DNA of 64,000 nucleotides from Stenotrophomonas maltophilia. Its GTDB lineage: Bacteria; Pseudomonadota; Gammaproteobacteria; Xanthomonadales; Xanthomonadaceae. The notes beneath the pieces are model-generated. The model saw only the letters and a list, made by a program, of their open reading frames with translations, had not been told where the DNA came from and searched no databases. Positions 5,084 to 57,950 of this stretch are shown here, piece by piece. Where the stretch lies: assembly GCF_002799245.1 (NCBI RefSeq), contig NZ_NEQV01000001.1, forward strand, positions 861,000-924,999, written 5' to 3'. Every line of letters begins with the position of its first letter. The stretch's first letter is position 1. Position numbers and translations under genes: made by a program.

Positions 5084-5482
5084 ATGAACATTCCGCGTTC
5101 CGCCGTGCTGTTGGCCACCCTGCTGGCCTCGGTACCGGCCATGGCCCAGCACGGCCCGTCCACTCCGGCGCAGAGCCAGCCGCTGGGCCCGACCGGCGGC
5201 GCCATCCGCCAACAGCCGCTGGGCGCCGGCCAGGTCACCGGCAGCGTCGAGATTCCGCAGCCGGCTGGCGAAGCCGCCGTCACCGTGCGTTCGCTGGAAC
5301 CGAGCAGCGTGGTCGGCCAGTACCGCATCCGCTTCAGCGACCTCGACGTGAACGGCGATGGGTTCATCAGCCGCCAGGAAGCACAGGCCAACCCGGCGCT
5401 GGCCGATGAATTCAATTCACTGGACCGCAGGCATCGCGGCAAGCTGGACCGCGCCGACCTGGCTGGATGGCTGGTTGATTGA
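5084..5482 (+). CDS. Secreted EF-hand calcium-binding protein
   Basis: A 132-aa exported protein. The signal peptide ends about residue 22 (ASVPAMA-QHG). A low-complexity Gln/Pro/Gly region follows, then an EF-hand pair near the C-terminus. The first loop, DVNGDGFISRQE, has acidic or amide residues at positions 1, 3, 5 and 12 and Gly at 6, so it should bind calcium. The second, DRRHRGKLDRAD, has Arg at positions 3 and 5 and is probably degenerate. AAGGAG at 5072-5077 fixes this start over upstream in-frame codons. The last A of its TGA stop is the first base of the inverted repeat at 5482. Confidence 0.85.
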   Translation: MNIPRSAVLLATLLASVPAMAQHGPSTPAQSQPLGPTGGAIRQQPLGAGQVTGSVEIPQPAGEAAVTVRSLEPSSVVGQYRIRFSDLDVNGDGFISRQEAQANPALADEFNSLDRRHRGKLDRADLAGWLVD

Positions 5483-5512
5483 AAAAGGGGACGGAGGGGA
5501 TTAAGTCGTTTG
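5482..5512. repeat. Left arm of 31-bp perfect inverted repeat
   Basis: A 31-base sequence beginning AAAAAGGGGACGGAGGGGAT that recurs as an exact reverse complement at 7208-7238. Here it is followed by a short loop and the first bases of a return arm (CAAACG at 5518-5523), after which pairing stops abruptly. This looks like a broken copy of a long intergenic palindrome. Confidence 0.9.
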
Positions 5513-5551
5513 TGGCACAAACGTCGTGATTCCTGCCCCCCTTCCTGACGC

Positions 5552-7075
5552 TTACAGGATCAACGGCGCCGCCCGCAAAAGCTGCTGCGGCGAGGCGGGT
5601 ACCTCCTGCAGTCCAACAACGTATCTGCCATCGTGGCTGATCACCGAAGCGACAGTGAACAGGCAGCGATGCGTGTAGATCTTTTCCCCACGCACCCGGT
5701 CATCTACGTACCGGCTGTGCAGGGACATGCCCGAGAAGCCACTGATCCTGAACCACACAGCCTGCGATCCGGCCCCCTCAACGGCCGTGCTGTTACCGGC
5801 ATCCTCAACACTGGGCGCAGTGGAGAAGAACGCCTGCGGGCGCACCGGAGCCCCCGTCGCGATCATCGTACCCAGACGTTCCAGTTCCTCGGTCGTGCAG
5901 GTTGCCTGATAGTAGGTTGTTTCAGGTTCAACGCCTTGCGAGTAACGGATCAATGCAAGTTCACGATTGATTTCGGCGATTTCATTGACCGTGCCGGGAT
6001 GGAGCATTTCCGCATAAAGCATCAAGTTGATTCCGGCACGGATCCTCCCTTCGTCATGCCTGAATGTGTCTCTACCCTGGGTGCGCACGATCTGCTCCTT
6101 GATGGTCAGGGCCCTCGTTCTGGAGCACAGCCCCCGGCACATTCCCTGGACCGCCTCGCGCCCCCGCCGGCTCGCCCACACCATGGCGAAACTTTCCCCA
6201 TCCAGGCGCTGTTGCAGGTCCGCCTGCAGCCGATTGACGCGGCTCGAGCGACGCTCCTTGTCCTGAGGCACAAGTGCGGCCACCAAGGGCGCACGGTGCT
6301 GGACCCGCTCTTTCCGGTCCAACTCGCGCAGCGCAGCGTGTGCGTTGTCCCGCTCCACAGTCAGTTCCCGCTGGCGGATGCTCGACCAATGCTGATGGGC
6401 GTCGCTGACGTGATGGCAGAGGAGTTCAAGGCAACCCTGCACTGCCGGTGGCGATGACTGCCCAGGCCCCTCCGCCATTGAATGCGGGCTCTCTCCAATG
6501 TCCGGCATCAATGGCACGCATGCTTGATCCGGTCTGTGGCGCCTCTCCGGCGGATCAGCGAAAATCATGGCCTGCCGGACGGCTCGTCCCAGCATCCTGT
6601 CATCTTCATCAAGGCACTTCTGGATCGCGACAGCATCATCGGCCATCACGCGATCCCGTAGGGCGATCAGATCATTCCGGGTAGCCGCTCCAGCGTAACG
6701 CCGTGCCAGCGCCTCGGCCTGCGCGGTCCGCTTGGCCTCACCATGCCCCAGGAGATTCTTCCAGGCGCTGCCGCTCTGCAGTGGCTTGATCCGTTCCCCC
6801 TTCAGCCGCAACATCCTGTCGCCTTCCAGGTTCCAGATGGAATCCAGCGCCTGCGACAGTGATCGCGTATCCCGCACGAAGTCGGCACGGATGGCCGGCA
6901 GCCTGGCACCAAACTGATGGCTCGCCCGCCTGACTTCCTGCAAGGCGTGATGCAAAGCCACGCGATCGCCTCGCAATCGTTCCAGGCCCTCTTCTGCGGC
7001 AGCAGCGCTCTGCCGCCAGGCCTCGCGCGAAGCGCGTATCGGTACAACCGGATGGGATGCGGCGGCAGGAAACAT
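5552..7075 (-). CDS. Unknown protein with ADP-ribosyltransferase-like C-terminus
   Basis: A 507-aa protein I cannot assign to a named family. Residues 1-370 are mostly helical and rich in Arg, Glu, Gln and Ala, with coiled-coil-like stretches, and there is no signal peptide or membrane helix. The last 120 residues follow the order of ADP-ribosyltransferases: TTYYQAT (residues 386-392, where active enzymes usually have Arg), QAFFSTAPS (414-422, like the STS motif), then VWFRISGFSG and RGEKIY with Glu at about 464. The missing Arg makes activity uncertain. Base composition is visibly less GC-rich than in neighbours. No partner gene or immunity-like gene adjoins it. A 31-bp inverted repeat brackets the gene. 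Function is inference from motif order only. Confidence 0.7.
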   Translation of the reverse strand: MFPAAASHPVVPIRASREAWRQSAAAAEEGLERLRGDRVALHHALQEVRRASHQFGARLPAIRADFVRDTRSLSQALDSIWNLEGDRMLRLKGERIKPLQSGSAWKNLLGHGEAKRTAQAEALARRYAGAATRNDLIALRDRVMADDAVAIQKCLDEDDRMLGRAVRQAMIFADPPERRHRPDQACVPLMPDIGESPHSMAEGPGQSSPPAVQGCLELLCHHVSDAHQHWSSIRQRELTVERDNAHAALRELDRKERVQHRAPLVAALVPQDKERRSSRVNRLQADLQQRLDGESFAMVWASRRGREAVQGMCRGLCSRTRALTIKEQIVRTQGRDTFRHDEGRIRAGINLMLYAEMLHPGTVNEIAEINRELALIRYSQGVEPETTYYQATCTTEELERLGTMIATGAPVRPQAFFSTAPSVEDAGNSTAVEGAGSQAVWFRISGFSGMSLHSRYVDDRVRGEKIYTHRCLFTVASVISHDGRYVVGLQEVPASPQQLLRAAPLIL

Positions 7076-7082
7076 GGAAGGG

Positions 7083-7095
7083 TTCGCTTGGCGAA
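7083..7095. promoter_or_regulatory. TTCGC inverted repeat upstream of the 507-aa gene
   Basis: The perfect palindrome TTCGC-TTG-GCGAA lies 7 bases upstream of the start codon, in place of a Shine-Dalgarno. It could be an operator or a translation-blocking hairpin. It is not a plant-inducible-promoter box, which has two direct TTCGC copies about 15 bases apart. Confidence 0.35.
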
Positions 7096-7116
7096 GGGCA
7101 ACACACGCTATCCCTC

Positions 7117-7144
7117 AGTAGACGGCCCTACATCCATTTTTCAA
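7117..7144 (-). promoter_or_regulatory. Possible promoter of the 507-aa gene
   Basis: On the minus strand TTGAAA (7139-7144) and TCTACT (7117-7122) are 16 bases apart and resemble -35 and -10 elements. The match is partial. Confidence 0.3.
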
Positions 7145-7207
7145 TCATCCGGCGGCTGTCGCGCCCGGCGTGGCATCCGCCAGCGCAGGATGCGACAAAA
7201 GGGGCGG

Positions 7208-7238
7208 CAAACGACTTAATCCCCTCCGTCCCCTTTTT
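7208..7238. repeat. Right arm of 31-bp perfect inverted repeat
   Basis: Exact reverse complement of 5482-5512, ending in CCCCTTTTT three bases before the stop of the ubiquinone hydroxylase gene. Its inner end CAAACG (7208-7213) is also present at the inner side of the left copy (5518-5523) in direct orientation, as a target duplication would be. Confidence 0.9.
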
Positions 7239-7241
7239 GCG

Positions 7242-8423
7242 CTAGACGCCGGCGGCGCGCTTCCAGAAGGCCTGCACCAGCGGCGGCCATTTGCCGACGC
7301 AGCCCAGCGCGCGGCCGCGGGCCAGGGTCAGGTGCATTTCGTCGTTGGAGAACAGGCGGTTGATCGCATCGAAGCTGTAGGCGGCGACGTGGTTGTCGCT
7401 GCGTCGCTCGCGTGCCCAGCGCTGCAGGCGCTGCGGCGACAGCCGCGGCTGGCCACGGCGCTCTGCCGATGGCGCCAGCCACTGCTGCAGGGCGGCGACA
7501 TCGCGCAGCCCCAGGTTGACGCCCTGCCCGGCCAGCGGATGCACCACATGCGCGGCATCACCCAGCGCCAGCACGCGGCCGGCGACATAGTGACGGGCCA
7601 GCTGACGGCGCAGCGGGAATGCCGCACGCGGTGATGCCAGCCGCAGTTCACCCAGGCGCGCAGCGAAGGCGCGGGTCAGTTCCCGGTTGAACGTGGCCTC
7701 GTCCAGCGCCAGCACACGTGCCGCCTCATCCTCGGGCAGGGTCCAGACGATCGAGCTGCGGCGCTCGGCCACCGGCAGCAACGCCAGTGGCCCGCCCGGC
7801 AGGAAGCGCTGCCAGGCCGTGGCCTGGTTGGGAAGATCGCTGTCCACGTAGGCCACCACGCCACGCTGGTGGTAGTCATGGCGCTCGACCTCGATTCCGG
7901 CCAGCTGGCGCAGGGTCGATTCGGCGCCGTCGGCGGCCACCGCCAACGCCGCTTCCAGGCGACGACCGTCATCCAGGCGCAGGCGCACGCCGTCTTCGTC
8001 CTGCTCCAGCGCCTCCACCCGTGCCGGGCAGTGCAGCTGCACACCCGCCGCCGGCAATGCCGACCACAGGCGATCCTGCAGCAGGCCGTTCTCGACGATG
8101 TAGCCCAGCTCGCGCCGACCGAAGCGATCGGCGTCGAACAGCAGATCCTCGCCACCCGCCGCATCCCACACCTGCATGCGCCGGTACGGCCAGGCGCGGG
8201 CCTGCGCGATGGCCGGCCACACGCCCAGGCGGTTCAACAGCTGCACGTTGTCAGCGGCGAAGGCGAACACGCGCAGGTCCGGCTGTGCGGCCTGCCACGG
8301 CGCGGGCTCGCGGCCCTCCACCAGCGCAACCGACAGACCGGCATCGGCCAACGCCAGCGCACAGGCGGCACCGACCACGCCGCCCCCGACGATGGCCACG
8401 TCCAGACGCGCACGCCGGCTCAT
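7242..8423 (-). CDS. UbiH/UbiF/VisC-family FAD hydroxylase
   Basis: A flavin monooxygenase of ubiquinone synthesis that hydroxylates the aromatic ring of a prenylated intermediate at the inner membrane. The 393-aa protein has an N-terminal Rossmann dinucleotide fold (DVAIVGGGVVGAACALALAD) and the second FAD motif GDAAHVVHPLAGQGVNLGLRD near residue 280. The start at 8423 overlaps the upstream ubiH stop by four bases (ATGA), so the two are translationally coupled, as in the E. coli ubiH-ubiI arrangement. Which ring position it acts on (UbiI, UbiF or a broader UbiM/UbiL type) cannot be told here. Confidence 0.9.
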   Translation of the reverse strand: MSRRARLDVAIVGGGVVGAACALALADAGLSVALVEGREPAPWQAAQPDLRVFAFAADNVQLLNRLGVWPAIAQARAWPYRRMQVWDAAGGEDLLFDADRFGRRELGYIVENGLLQDRLWSALPAAGVQLHCPARVEALEQDEDGVRLRLDDGRRLEAALAVAADGAESTLRQLAGIEVERHDYHQRGVVAYVDSDLPNQATAWQRFLPGGPLALLPVAERRSSIVWTLPEDEAARVLALDEATFNRELTRAFAARLGELRLASPRAAFPLRRQLARHYVAGRVLALGDAAHVVHPLAGQGVNLGLRDVAALQQWLAPSAERRGQPRLSPQRLQRWARERRSDNHVAAYSFDAINRLFSNDEMHLTLARGRALGCVGKWPPLVQAFWKRAAGV

Positions 8424-9628
8424 GCAGCTTCTCCACGGCACAGGCGCGGCACTTCGCCGCGGAAGCCCATCGCGCCGCCGACCAGCATCGATTGCACCGA
8501 CGCGCGCTGCGCGGCAACCAGGCCGAGACTGCGCAGCGGCCGCATCAGCGGCGCCGGGTTGCTGGTCAGGCGTGCCAGCCCCCCGGAGAACGCCACCGTC
8601 TGCCGGCGGTCCTCCTCGCGGCGCGCGACATAGGCCTGCAGCAGTGCATCACTGCCGGCATCCCCGTGCGCATCTTCCAGCAGTTCGGCCAGGGTCAGCG
8701 CATCGCGCAGGCCCAGGTTGAAGCCCTGCGCGCCCAGCGGATGGATGGTCTGCGCGGCATTGCCGAGCAGCACCGTGCGTTCACCGGCCAACGCGCGCGC
8801 CAGCACCTGGATGAGCGGGTAAGCGCTGCGCGGGCCGGATTCGAGCAGGCGACCGGCACGCCAGCCGATCGCATCCTGCAGGCGTTGCAGCCAGGCCACA
8901 TCGTCCAGCGCCATCACCGCATCGGCCTGGTCCCGGGCCACGCCATGCACGGTGCCGAAGTGGCGATCACCACGCGGCAGCAGGGCGGTCGGGCCGGTAT
9001 CGGTGAAGCGCTCCCAGGCCGTGCCATCCGGCGCGCGCTGGCTGCGCACGCGGGCCACGAACAGGGTCTGCTGGAAATCATGCCGGTCGACCTCGATGCC
9101 CAACGCGCCTCGCACGCCGCTGGTCGTGCCATCGGCACCCACCACCAGCCGTGCCAGCAGCACGCGCTCGCCGGTCTCGTCGGCCACCCGCACCTGGCGG
9201 TAGCCATCGACCACCTCGCCCAGGCCCAGGAACCGCATCGGCCGGTAGCGCTGCAGCCGCGGCAGTTCCTGCAAGCGCGCCTCCAGCGCCTGGCCGAAGT
9301 CCCGCGCAACCACCACCTGGCCGAACCACGGCCGGTCGTAGTCGGACGCCTCCAGCTGCACGCGGCCGAAATCGCCGGCACGGCTGACGTGGATGCGACG
9401 GATCGGCCCCGGCGCCATCGCCAGCTTCTGCATGACCCCCAACGCGGTCAGCGCGTTGACGGTGGCAGCGGCGAAACTGAGGTTGCGCTGGTCGAACACC
9501 GCCGGCAGCTCGCCGGCCGGGCTGGCCTCGAGCAGGCCCACATCGCGGCCCAAGCGGTCCAGGGCGATGGCCAGGCTGGCACCGACCAGGCCACCACCGA
9601 CGATCAGCACGTCATGTCGTTCACTCAT
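8420..9628 (-). CDS. ubiH: 2-octaprenyl-6-methoxyphenol hydroxylase
   Basis: First gene of the ubiquinone hydroxylase pair. The 402-aa FAD enzyme begins with DVLIVGGGLVGASLAIALDR and carries the signature GNAAQTIHPLGAQGFNLGLRD near residue 285. QRNLSFAAATVNAL and FGQVVVARDFG in the N-terminal half are typical of UbiH. I choose the ATG at 9628 because a TATCAT hexamer ends exactly seven bases upstream, which would make the transcript begin at the start codon. An ATG at 9637 overlaps that hexamer and is less likely. Confidence 0.9.
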   Translation of the reverse strand: MSERHDVLIVGGGLVGASLAIALDRLGRDVGLLEASPAGELPAVFDQRNLSFAAATVNALTALGVMQKLAMAPGPIRRIHVSRAGDFGRVQLEASDYDRPWFGQVVVARDFGQALEARLQELPRLQRYRPMRFLGLGEVVDGYRQVRVADETGERVLLARLVVGADGTTSGVRGALGIEVDRHDFQQTLFVARVRSQRAPDGTAWERFTDTGPTALLPRGDRHFGTVHGVARDQADAVMALDDVAWLQRLQDAIGWRAGRLLESGPRSAYPLIQVLARALAGERTVLLGNAAQTIHPLGAQGFNLGLRDALTLAELLEDAHGDAGSDALLQAYVARREEDRRQTVAFSGGLARLTSNPAPLMRPLRSLGLVAAQRASVQSMLVGGAMGFRGEVPRLCRGEAA

Positions 9629-45381: not shown

Positions 45382-46209
45382 ATGACGCCGCCGATCTCTT
45401 CTCCGACCTATCTGCACGGTTTTTCCGGCACCGAGCAGCAGCGCCTGATGACCCAGGCCCGGCTGCTGGAATCGAGCATCTTCGGCCAGATCGACTACAG
45501 CGGCGCGCGGCGCCTGCTGGAAGTCGGCAGCGGCGTGGGCGCACAGACCGAGATCCTGCTGCGTCGCTTCCCCGAGCTGCATGTGACCGGCGTGGACCTG
45601 AGCGAAACGCAGCTGGCCACCGCACGCGAGAACCTGGCGCGTACGCCGTGGTGCAGCGACCGCTACACCCTGCAGCAGGCCGACGCGGGTGAGCTGCCAT
45701 TCGAGGCGCGCAGTTTCGATGCGGCGTTCCTGTGCTGGGTGCTGGAACACGTCCCCTCCCCTGCCCGTGTACTGAGCGAAGTACGCCGCGTGCTGGCACC
45801 GGGTTCGCCGGTCTACATCACCGAAGTGATGAATGCCTCGTTCCTGCTCGACCCGTATTCGCCGCACATCTGGCGCTACTGGATGGCCTTCAACGACTTC
45901 CAGTACGACCACGGGGGTGACCCGTTCGTCGGCGCCAAGCTGGGCAACCTGCTGCTGGCCGGTGGCTTCCGCGACGTGCATACCGAGATCAAGACCATCC
46001 ACCTGGACAACCGCGAACCGGCGCGTCGCAAGACGATGATCGCGTTCTGGGAGCAGCTGCTGCTGTCGGCGGCCGACCAGCTGCTGCAGGCGGGCTCGGT
46101 GGACGAGGAAACCGTGGAAGGCATGCGCCGCGAATTCCGCCTGGTGCAGAACGACCCGAACGCGGTGTTCTTCTATTCGTTCGTGCAGGGCCGCGCCACG
46201 GTGTATTGA
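45382..46209 (+). CDS. Class I SAM-dependent methyltransferase
   Basis: A 275-aa methyltransferase. Motif I is RRLLEVGSGVGAQTEILLRR, motif II VTGVDLSE, motif III LQQADAGELPFEARSFDAAF and post-motif LCWVLEHVPSPARVLSEVRRVLAPG, all in a Rossmann fold of the Methyltransf_11 type. The C-terminal part (DPYSPHIWRYWMAFNDFQYD) suggests a small-molecule or lipid substrate, not identified. Probably co-transcribed with dusB. Confidence 0.88.
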   Translation: MTPPISSPTYLHGFSGTEQQRLMTQARLLESSIFGQIDYSGARRLLEVGSGVGAQTEILLRRFPELHVTGVDLSETQLATARENLARTPWCSDRYTLQQADAGELPFEARSFDAAFLCWVLEHVPSPARVLSEVRRVLAPGSPVYITEVMNASFLLDPYSPHIWRYWMAFNDFQYDHGGDPFVGAKLGNLLLAGGFRDVHTEIKTIHLDNREPARRKTMIAFWEQLLLSAADQLLQAGSVDEETVEGMRREFRLVQNDPNAVFFYSFVQGRATVY

Positions 46210-57820: not shown

Positions 57821-57833
57821 GGGGGTCTCCCCT

Positions 57834-57912
57834 GCCGAGGGGCGCTGCGACCGGATCCCAAGAGGCCCGGCCAGGCTCGGTGAGGTGGCTTTGTAACAAC
57901 GGCGCCCGGCTA
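57834..57912 (+). promoter_or_regulatory. S-adenosylhomocysteine riboswitch
   Basis: The leader matches the SAH riboswitch: GCCGAGGGGCGCTGCGACC at the 5' side, CCAGGCTCGG in the middle (CTCGG pairs with CCGAG), and AACGGCGCCC at the 3' side (GGCGCCC pairs with GGGCGC). This class is an ON switch: SAH binding raises ahcY expression. A small GCGAG/CTCGC hairpin (57916-57931) sits between it and the ribosome-binding site GGAG (57940-57943). Confidence 0.88.
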
Positions 57913-57950
57913 GATGCGAGCACCCGCTCGCCCACAACCGGAGCACACGA

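Follow-up and report, generated by a model that had tools for sequence, protein, structure and literature searches.

A gene enclosed by the halves of a TIR/REPIN-like palindrome between an EF-hand gene and ubiH in Stenotrophomonas maltophilia

We analysed a 64,000-nucleotide stretch of S. maltophilia DNA (contig NZ_NEQV01000001.1 of assembly GCF_002799245.1), here called the window. Between an EF-hand protein gene and a ubiH-like gene, two halves of one palindrome enclose a segment with a single complete gene. The same junction in 15 related genomes lacks the gene and carries a closed palindrome. The repeat family of the arms is dispersed, and its candidate transposase is encoded in the genome of the window. 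We consider it fairly likely that the resident palindrome of the TIR/REPIN kind served as a landing site, and that a 1.7-kb segment carrying the complete gene entered its centre once, in this lineage. The features of the locus are as follows.

5084..5482, plus strand: EF-hand protein gene (open reading frame; PF13405, E 7.2e-7, 28.9 bits against a cut-off of 25)
5482..5512, plus strand: left arm of the split palindrome, complementary to 7208-7238 at 31 of 31 positions
5513..5523, plus strand: loop and first bases of the lost right half, ending in the first CAAACG copy (5518-5523)
5524..7207, no strand: putative inserted segment of 1684 bp, missing from the junction in 15 relatives with a closed palindrome
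5552..7075, minus strand: 507-codon gene, predicted to be type III effector-like (open reading frame; no Pfam match)
7131..7148, minus strand: ATGATTGAAAAATGGATG, upstream of the 507-codon gene, loosely resembling the junction motif of relatives
7197..7207, plus strand: AAAAGGGGCGG, candidate remnant of a second repeat arm, directly inward of the right arm (the match is suggestive)
7208..7238, minus strand: right arm of the split palindrome, starting with the second CAAACG copy (7208-7213)
7242..8441, minus strand: ubiH-like hydroxylase gene, the right anchor of the locus (open reading frame; label given by the first-pass annotation from the sequence alone)

The split palindrome and its empty sites

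An inverted-repeat search of the window returned the two arms, 31 nt long, 100% complementary and 1695 nt apart. The 19-base core of the arm occurs in the window only at the two arm sites (up to three mismatches allowed), and its absence from 100 shuffles rules out a chance origin of the repeat. The TGA codon of the EF-hand gene, for which a longer open reading frame with a GTG start is also listed, ends on the base that opens the left arm. A single long open reading frame, at 5552-7075 on the minus strand, takes up most of the interval between the arms. The left half, AAAAAGGGGACGGAGGGGATTAAGTCGTTTGTGGCACAAACG, breaks off at 5523, after the loop and CAAACG; the right half restarts at 7208, again with CAAACG. 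When 5482-5523 and 7214-7238 are joined, they form a 67-bp palindrome that is self-complementary at 66 of 67 positions. The first-pass annotation had described a perfect 31-bp inverted repeat around one gene, a fold-back that stops at the left CAAACG and resumes at the right one, and a single long palindrome restored by deletion of the insert, and all of this is borne out by the complementarity, the open reading frames, the letters and the joined flanks. It had also seen neither a transposase in the insert nor terminal repeats belonging to it; likewise, the insert was found to encode no transposase, and the inverted pairs include no ends of its own. Rfam families gave no match at the locus at gathering scores. 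Elsewhere in the window, at 57831-57914 on the plus strand, there is an SAH riboswitch (RF01057, 56.4 bits against a gathering score of 37).

The 3' end of ubiH was matched in 89 of the 90 genus genomes searched, G028 giving only a short match. The junction could be read in 83 genomes including that of the window (G000), which leaves 82 others; G009, G016, G021 and G061 were unreadable as far as the left anchor, and G028, G043, G054 and G076 were left out of the junction set. The empty site with an intact palindrome, which the first-pass annotation had proposed to look for in other Stenotrophomonas genomes, is present at 15 of these 82 loci (arms with at most three mismatches): G003, G015, G017, G024, G035, G036, G038, G039, G041, G044, G045, G048, G053, G082 and G086. 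Ten of these palindromes are of a 56-bp form and five of a 57-bp form. The remaining 67 loci have no arms at the junction. The contigs of G061 and G009 end at a right arm, and G063 retains a remnant. The empty sites share their outer boundaries with the window: the TGA of the EF-hand gene abuts the A-run, and the stop codon of ubiH lies about three bases past the T-run (compact forms and window).

The joined flanks of the window are very similar to the 57-bp palindromes at the same locus, agreeing at 64 of 67 bases in G024 and G015, 65 in G082, and 66 in G086 and G044. In the last two genomes the central base alone differs, and these palindromes are the exact reverse complement of the joined flanks. 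Four copies elsewhere in the own genome (L013, L079, L087, L091) are identical to the joined flanks. Ungapped agreement with the ten 56-bp relatives is 44-48 of 67. CAAACG is present twice at the window locus, whereas each closed 57-bp palindrome in the relatives has it once; an origin from two repeat units may also account for this. In a separate comparison (L045 with L046-L049), a palindrome of G024 stands right after the EF-hand stop codon and related genomes have none, which looks like a clean REPIN insertion.

In a tree built from 2,579 aligned columns in 28 genomes, G000 groups with G036 (SH-aLRT 90.3, bootstrap 97) and then with G053 (93.6/83), both of which have the empty site. The tree based on ubiH alone has the same G000-G036 pair with weak support (89/33). 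Since G000 is nested among empty-site genomes, the gene-bearing form is most simply the derived state, and insertion is the simplest reading. The other palindromes of G000 were also compared with G036. Twelve loci were tried; one had no match in the fetched part of G036, one was split between stretches, and one was a single arm, also kept. The nine remaining palindrome loci were readable in both genomes, and at every one of them the palindrome is retained in G036, with no gene in it. At the junction itself G036, G045, G053 and G038 have the 56-bp loop type (TATGTGCACATA or near it) and agree with the joined flanks at just 47-48 of 67 ungapped positions, whereas the window halves fit the 57-bp type. 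However, this mismatch with the sister genome is not decisive and could reflect turnover, as the loop class differs between G000 and G036 at two of the nine other loci.

The repeat family and its candidate transposase

The arms are dispersed in the own genome (4.75 Mb), with 55 forward and 56 reverse matches, 111 in all, against none for a reversed-pattern control. Among the 103 arms in the fetched copies there are 47 close inverted pairs, 40 of them measuring 56-68 bp, and nine single arms, two of which are the pair in the window. Membership in a dispersed family rules out a plain terminator hairpin as the full account of the palindrome.

A gene encoding a PF01797 (Y1) transposase on another contig (G000:C10) has the same arms on both sides. 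Its score against the REP_Tyr_transpos model NF047646 is 75.3 bits (E 4.3e-21), below the cut-off of 80. Orthologues of this RAYT with at least 62% identity, a line set after viewing the list at the gap to the next best (51%), were found in 20 of the 91 genus genomes, and in all 20 the gene has arms on both sides. A clear inner arm is present at the 3' end of RAYT in 20 of 20 genomes, with scores of 17-34 against a random 99% point of 16. Arms occur in 41 of the 91 genomes: all 20 with RAYT and 21 of the 71 without it. The 20 RAYT-less genomes for which the flank was fetched have no arms within 1.5 kb on that side. No GTAG or GTGG tetranucleotide, the tag of GTAG-tagged REPs, was seen at the arm ends when these were read by eye. 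The family does have the marks of REPIN and TIR repeats, that is, dispersed paired copies, arms around a tyrosine transposase, and arms accompanying the transposase across genomes. It fits the published TIR/REPIN repeats of TIRYT/RAYT in S. maltophilia, and the dispersed copies were presumably made by the transposase.

According to the available part of PMC3733652, S. maltophilia K279a has two TIRYT families (ORFs 1152 and 4509), with comparable ones in D457. The likeness to the TIRtrons and TIRYTs of that account lies in inverted repeats around a tyrosine transposase, repeated in the genome, many of them as dimers; the difference is that the arms in the window enclose a gene other than a transposase. 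The RAYT considered here corresponds to 4.555 Mb in D457 and so may be of the ORF 4509 type, an assignment by place and not by the letters of the repeats. The shared motif GGGGWSAS given in the same part of PMC3733652 has no exact match in GGGGACGG. A second tyrosine transposase, 43% identical to the first, is encoded at G000:C1:541716-542312; it may be of the ORF 1152 type of PMC3733652, again by place in D457 only. The REPINs of PMC3116915 are similar in that two inverted short units form a dispersed hairpin, which is taken to descend from repeats on either side of an autonomous element. However, the available part of PMC3116915 does not mention a REPIN with a 1.5-kb gene in it.

The first-pass annotation had suggested a search for other genes bracketed by halves of the palindrome. 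Among the fetched G000 copies, no gene between single arms was evident apart from RAYT itself, and among the places listed for a few genus genomes, a RAYT bracket in G011 was the only evident case within a few kb. A different kind of bracketing is seen in L071 (1057-1124 and 1868-1935; G000:C2, about 770.5-771.4 kb), where two closed palindromes of the same family stand about 0.8 kb apart. In L015 (1496-1580; G000:C1:428.7 kb) and L231 (G003) an arm has a diverged partner. This arm is probably an old copy, as it is alike in two species. A separate L015 arm family as the source of a partner for the left half of the window palindrome was considered and dropped, the own genome having yielded L015 alone. 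Tight-hairpin arms match in 28 of the 91 genus genomes, a few in each (positions only).

The enclosed gene and type III secretion at the junction

The segment between the arms (5524..7207) has a G+C content of 62.7%, against 67.7% for the window, and the third-position G+C of the gene is 71%, against 83-91% in six nearby genes. The protein has no Pfam family and nothing near the cut-off among NCBIfam models. Its family is rare. It was found in three of the 91 genus genomes, with one copy each in G000, G023 and G031, and in a family-wide draw of 395 genomes the gene was present in G000 and G023 only. No relatives were found in GTDB r220 contigs, IMG/VR or PLSDB. The G023 protein (523 aa; 28% and 40% identity over two parts) is encoded at the same junction and in the same orientation, with no arms there. 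The gene for the G031 protein (458 aa) and a type III secretin gene are separated by about 1.5 kb, and the G031 genome is free of arms.

The C-termini of the three proteins can be aligned. The C-terminal part of the G031 protein has a single match among PDB sequences, the type III effector HopU1, at E 0.36, which is a weak lead to the ADP-ribosyltransferase effectors of that type. Against this likeness, profiles built from the three proteins gave no match to PDB sequences and the window protein has no Pfam family; moreover, its residues differ at the places of what we take to be the usual ADP-ribosyltransferase motifs. The structure predicted for the whole protein is poor (mean pLDDT 40.4). 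The gene is predicted to resemble a type III secretion effector.

A TIGR02516 secretin scoring above the cut-off was found in 14 of the 91 genus genomes, including G023 and G031. In G000 the same search gave none over the cut-off, the best score being 138.9 bits against 238.45. With the secretin as the marker searched, the effector-like gene in the window is apparently an orphan. At the EF-hand/ubiH junction, nine of 13 readable secretin genomes have a long extra segment, against two of 70 genomes without the secretin (Fisher test, 1e-7, uncorrected for kinship); the lines for calling a segment long were our own, 800 bases when measured from the EF-hand gene or 1000 when measured from rlmM. 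The two secretin-less genomes are G000 and G070, the latter just 76% complete. The junction is a recurrent home for extra genes in type III-positive relatives. That the gene lies at this type III-linked site in a genome without the secretin argues for transfer from a relative by exchange at the locus, not for random insertion. The donor was presumably a relative with a type III system.

Upstream of the junction genes in L123, L130, L132, L135 and L139 there is a motif of the type GATCGAAANNTGGAAG, with looser forms in L125 and L102. The copy ATGATTGAAAAATGGATG at 7131-7148 of the window has four mismatches to the motif of the relatives. It is no evidence alone, since other places (position 46035 of the window, L103, L280-L282) match at the same tolerance. 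At the EF-hand/ubiH junction of three secretin genomes, G004, G005 and G029 (L130, L132, L306), there are open reading frames of 139-140 codons whose first residues are alike by eye; they are candidates for unnamed type III-linked proteins.

Probable entry of the gene into the palindrome

The starting point would have been a TIR/REPIN palindrome that separated the EF-hand gene from ubiH; the genome has about 50 closed copies of this kind. A 1.7-kb segment with the effector-like gene would then have entered its centre, leaving the arms outside and CAAACG on both sides. The routes we favour are that an extruded palindrome broke and captured DNA, or that a central insertion made a 6-bp duplication. 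Only slightly less likely would be recombination of the palindrome with a copy of the repeat carried by the incoming DNA. We see the palindrome as the landing site rather than the vehicle. The insertion sequences that target REPs, as described in the available part of PMC3733652, are similar in inserting into a repeated palindrome. The difference is that the insert in the window has no transposase, nor a terminal inverted repeat among the pairs found. Several observations speak against plain insertion: the other loop type in the nearest relatives, the inner-arm signals described below, the lack of a transposase and of own inverted ends in the insert, and the gene of G023 at the same junction and in the same orientation, a coincidence that random insertion leaves unexplained.

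The sequences beside the ends of the insert bear on the choice of route. On the right, AAAAGGGGCGG is one base shorter than the start of the arm itself, and scores as high as its own arose 55 times in 20000 random stretches and 978 times in 20000 shuffles. The stretch after the left CAAACG is only weakly similar to the consensus of the family: random stretches do as well in 802 of 20000 cases and shuffles in 13208 of 20000, and in register it agrees at 11 of 25 positions, a value reached by 403 of 20000. It is closer to a variant arm, picked post hoc (13 of 20000 random stretches, 495 of 20000 shuffles). When whole units were folded and compared with 200 dinucleotide shuffles, the left one outdid 197 and the right one 186, and the L015 unit was average. 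With the outer arm and the loop held fixed, the left inner stretch was equalled 359 times in 5000 random stretches and 2663 times in 5000 shuffles, and the right one 71 and 293 times, respectively. As proof of two hairpins the inner arms fall short: the dinucleotide shuffles favour the left hairpin (three of 200 as good), the fixed-arm tests do not, and the alignment on the right is suggestive. The signals may stem from a further copy of the repeat at either end.

The first-pass annotation had proposed insertion into the hairpin with duplication of CAAACG. Insertion is supported by the 15 empty sites, the match of the joined flanks at 64-66 of 67 bases and the tree. As for the duplication, CAAACG fits a 6-bp target duplication, but this is unproven, and the inner-arm signals leave room for recombination.

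One alternative is a TIRtron-like cassette, in which the gene would lie between two TIR units, each with an intact outer and a decayed inner arm, and would be moved as a unit by RAYT in trans. RAYT is present in G000, its own gene is bracketed likewise in the 20 genomes that have it, with the clear inner arm at the 3' end, and the inner-arm hints at both ends (the random-stretch counts on the right and, for the post hoc variant, on the left) and the folding of the whole units point the same way. However, the left inner arm is weak against the consensus, and the fixed-arm folding counts for the two sides also tell against the cassette. Furthermore, a mobile cassette would be expected in several copies or with the same ends elsewhere; the gene has one copy in G000, and its relatives in G023 and G031 have no such arms at their places. 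Movement by RAYT in trans may have occurred, but we do not favour it, given this single copy and outer boundaries that coincide with those of the palindrome resident in relatives. We regard the cassette as unlikely.

The other alternative of similar standing, likewise improbable in our judgement, is that incoming DNA carried the gene together with a diverged copy of the repeat, which recombined with the resident palindrome, either by a single crossover with a circle or by exchange via the short arms. It accounts for the intact outer arms, the decayed inner arms, the unchanged boundaries and the loop mismatch with the sister genome. The left inner stretch also resembles the variant arm (CGTGAT), which is found once in G011 and at a RAYT end in G089, both in a group of the ubiH-only tree that includes G023, the other carrier at this junction; however, this resemblance is short and post hoc. 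The arms are just about 30 bp, which is short for homologous exchange, and no donor molecule was found in GTDB r220 contigs, IMG/VR or PLSDB.

It is very unlikely that the gene is ancestral at the junction, with two repeat units inserted beside it and the gene later lost from relatives by CAAACG-CAAACG deletion: short direct repeats beside inverted repeats do favour deletion, and the distant homologue of G023 has the same junction and orientation, but several separate exact deletions would be required (G036, G053, G045 and others), G023 has no arms at the junction, and the 67-bp palindrome also occurs at unrelated loci and so was not made by deletion here.

The reading we prefer, with the palindrome as the landing site, would gain in scope if REPIN palindromes in general were docking sites that take up and park single genes, via RAYT/TIRYT or palindrome breakage. 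We offer this extension as a speculation that is more probably wrong than right by a wide measure. In the mainly open-access literature searched, we recognised no work on genes carried inside REPINs or TIR pairs. If true, a role in gene capture would be new for a class of repeats and transposases that the available parts of the surveyed papers (e.g. PMC3733652, PMC3116915) link solely with short repeats. The locus provides a before-and-after pair: a closed palindrome in relatives and a gene-filled one in the window, whose genome also encodes the cognate transposase. In addition, it draws attention to a junction at which extra genes are found mainly in members of the genus with a type III secretin, and to an apparent orphan effector-like gene in a genome without one.
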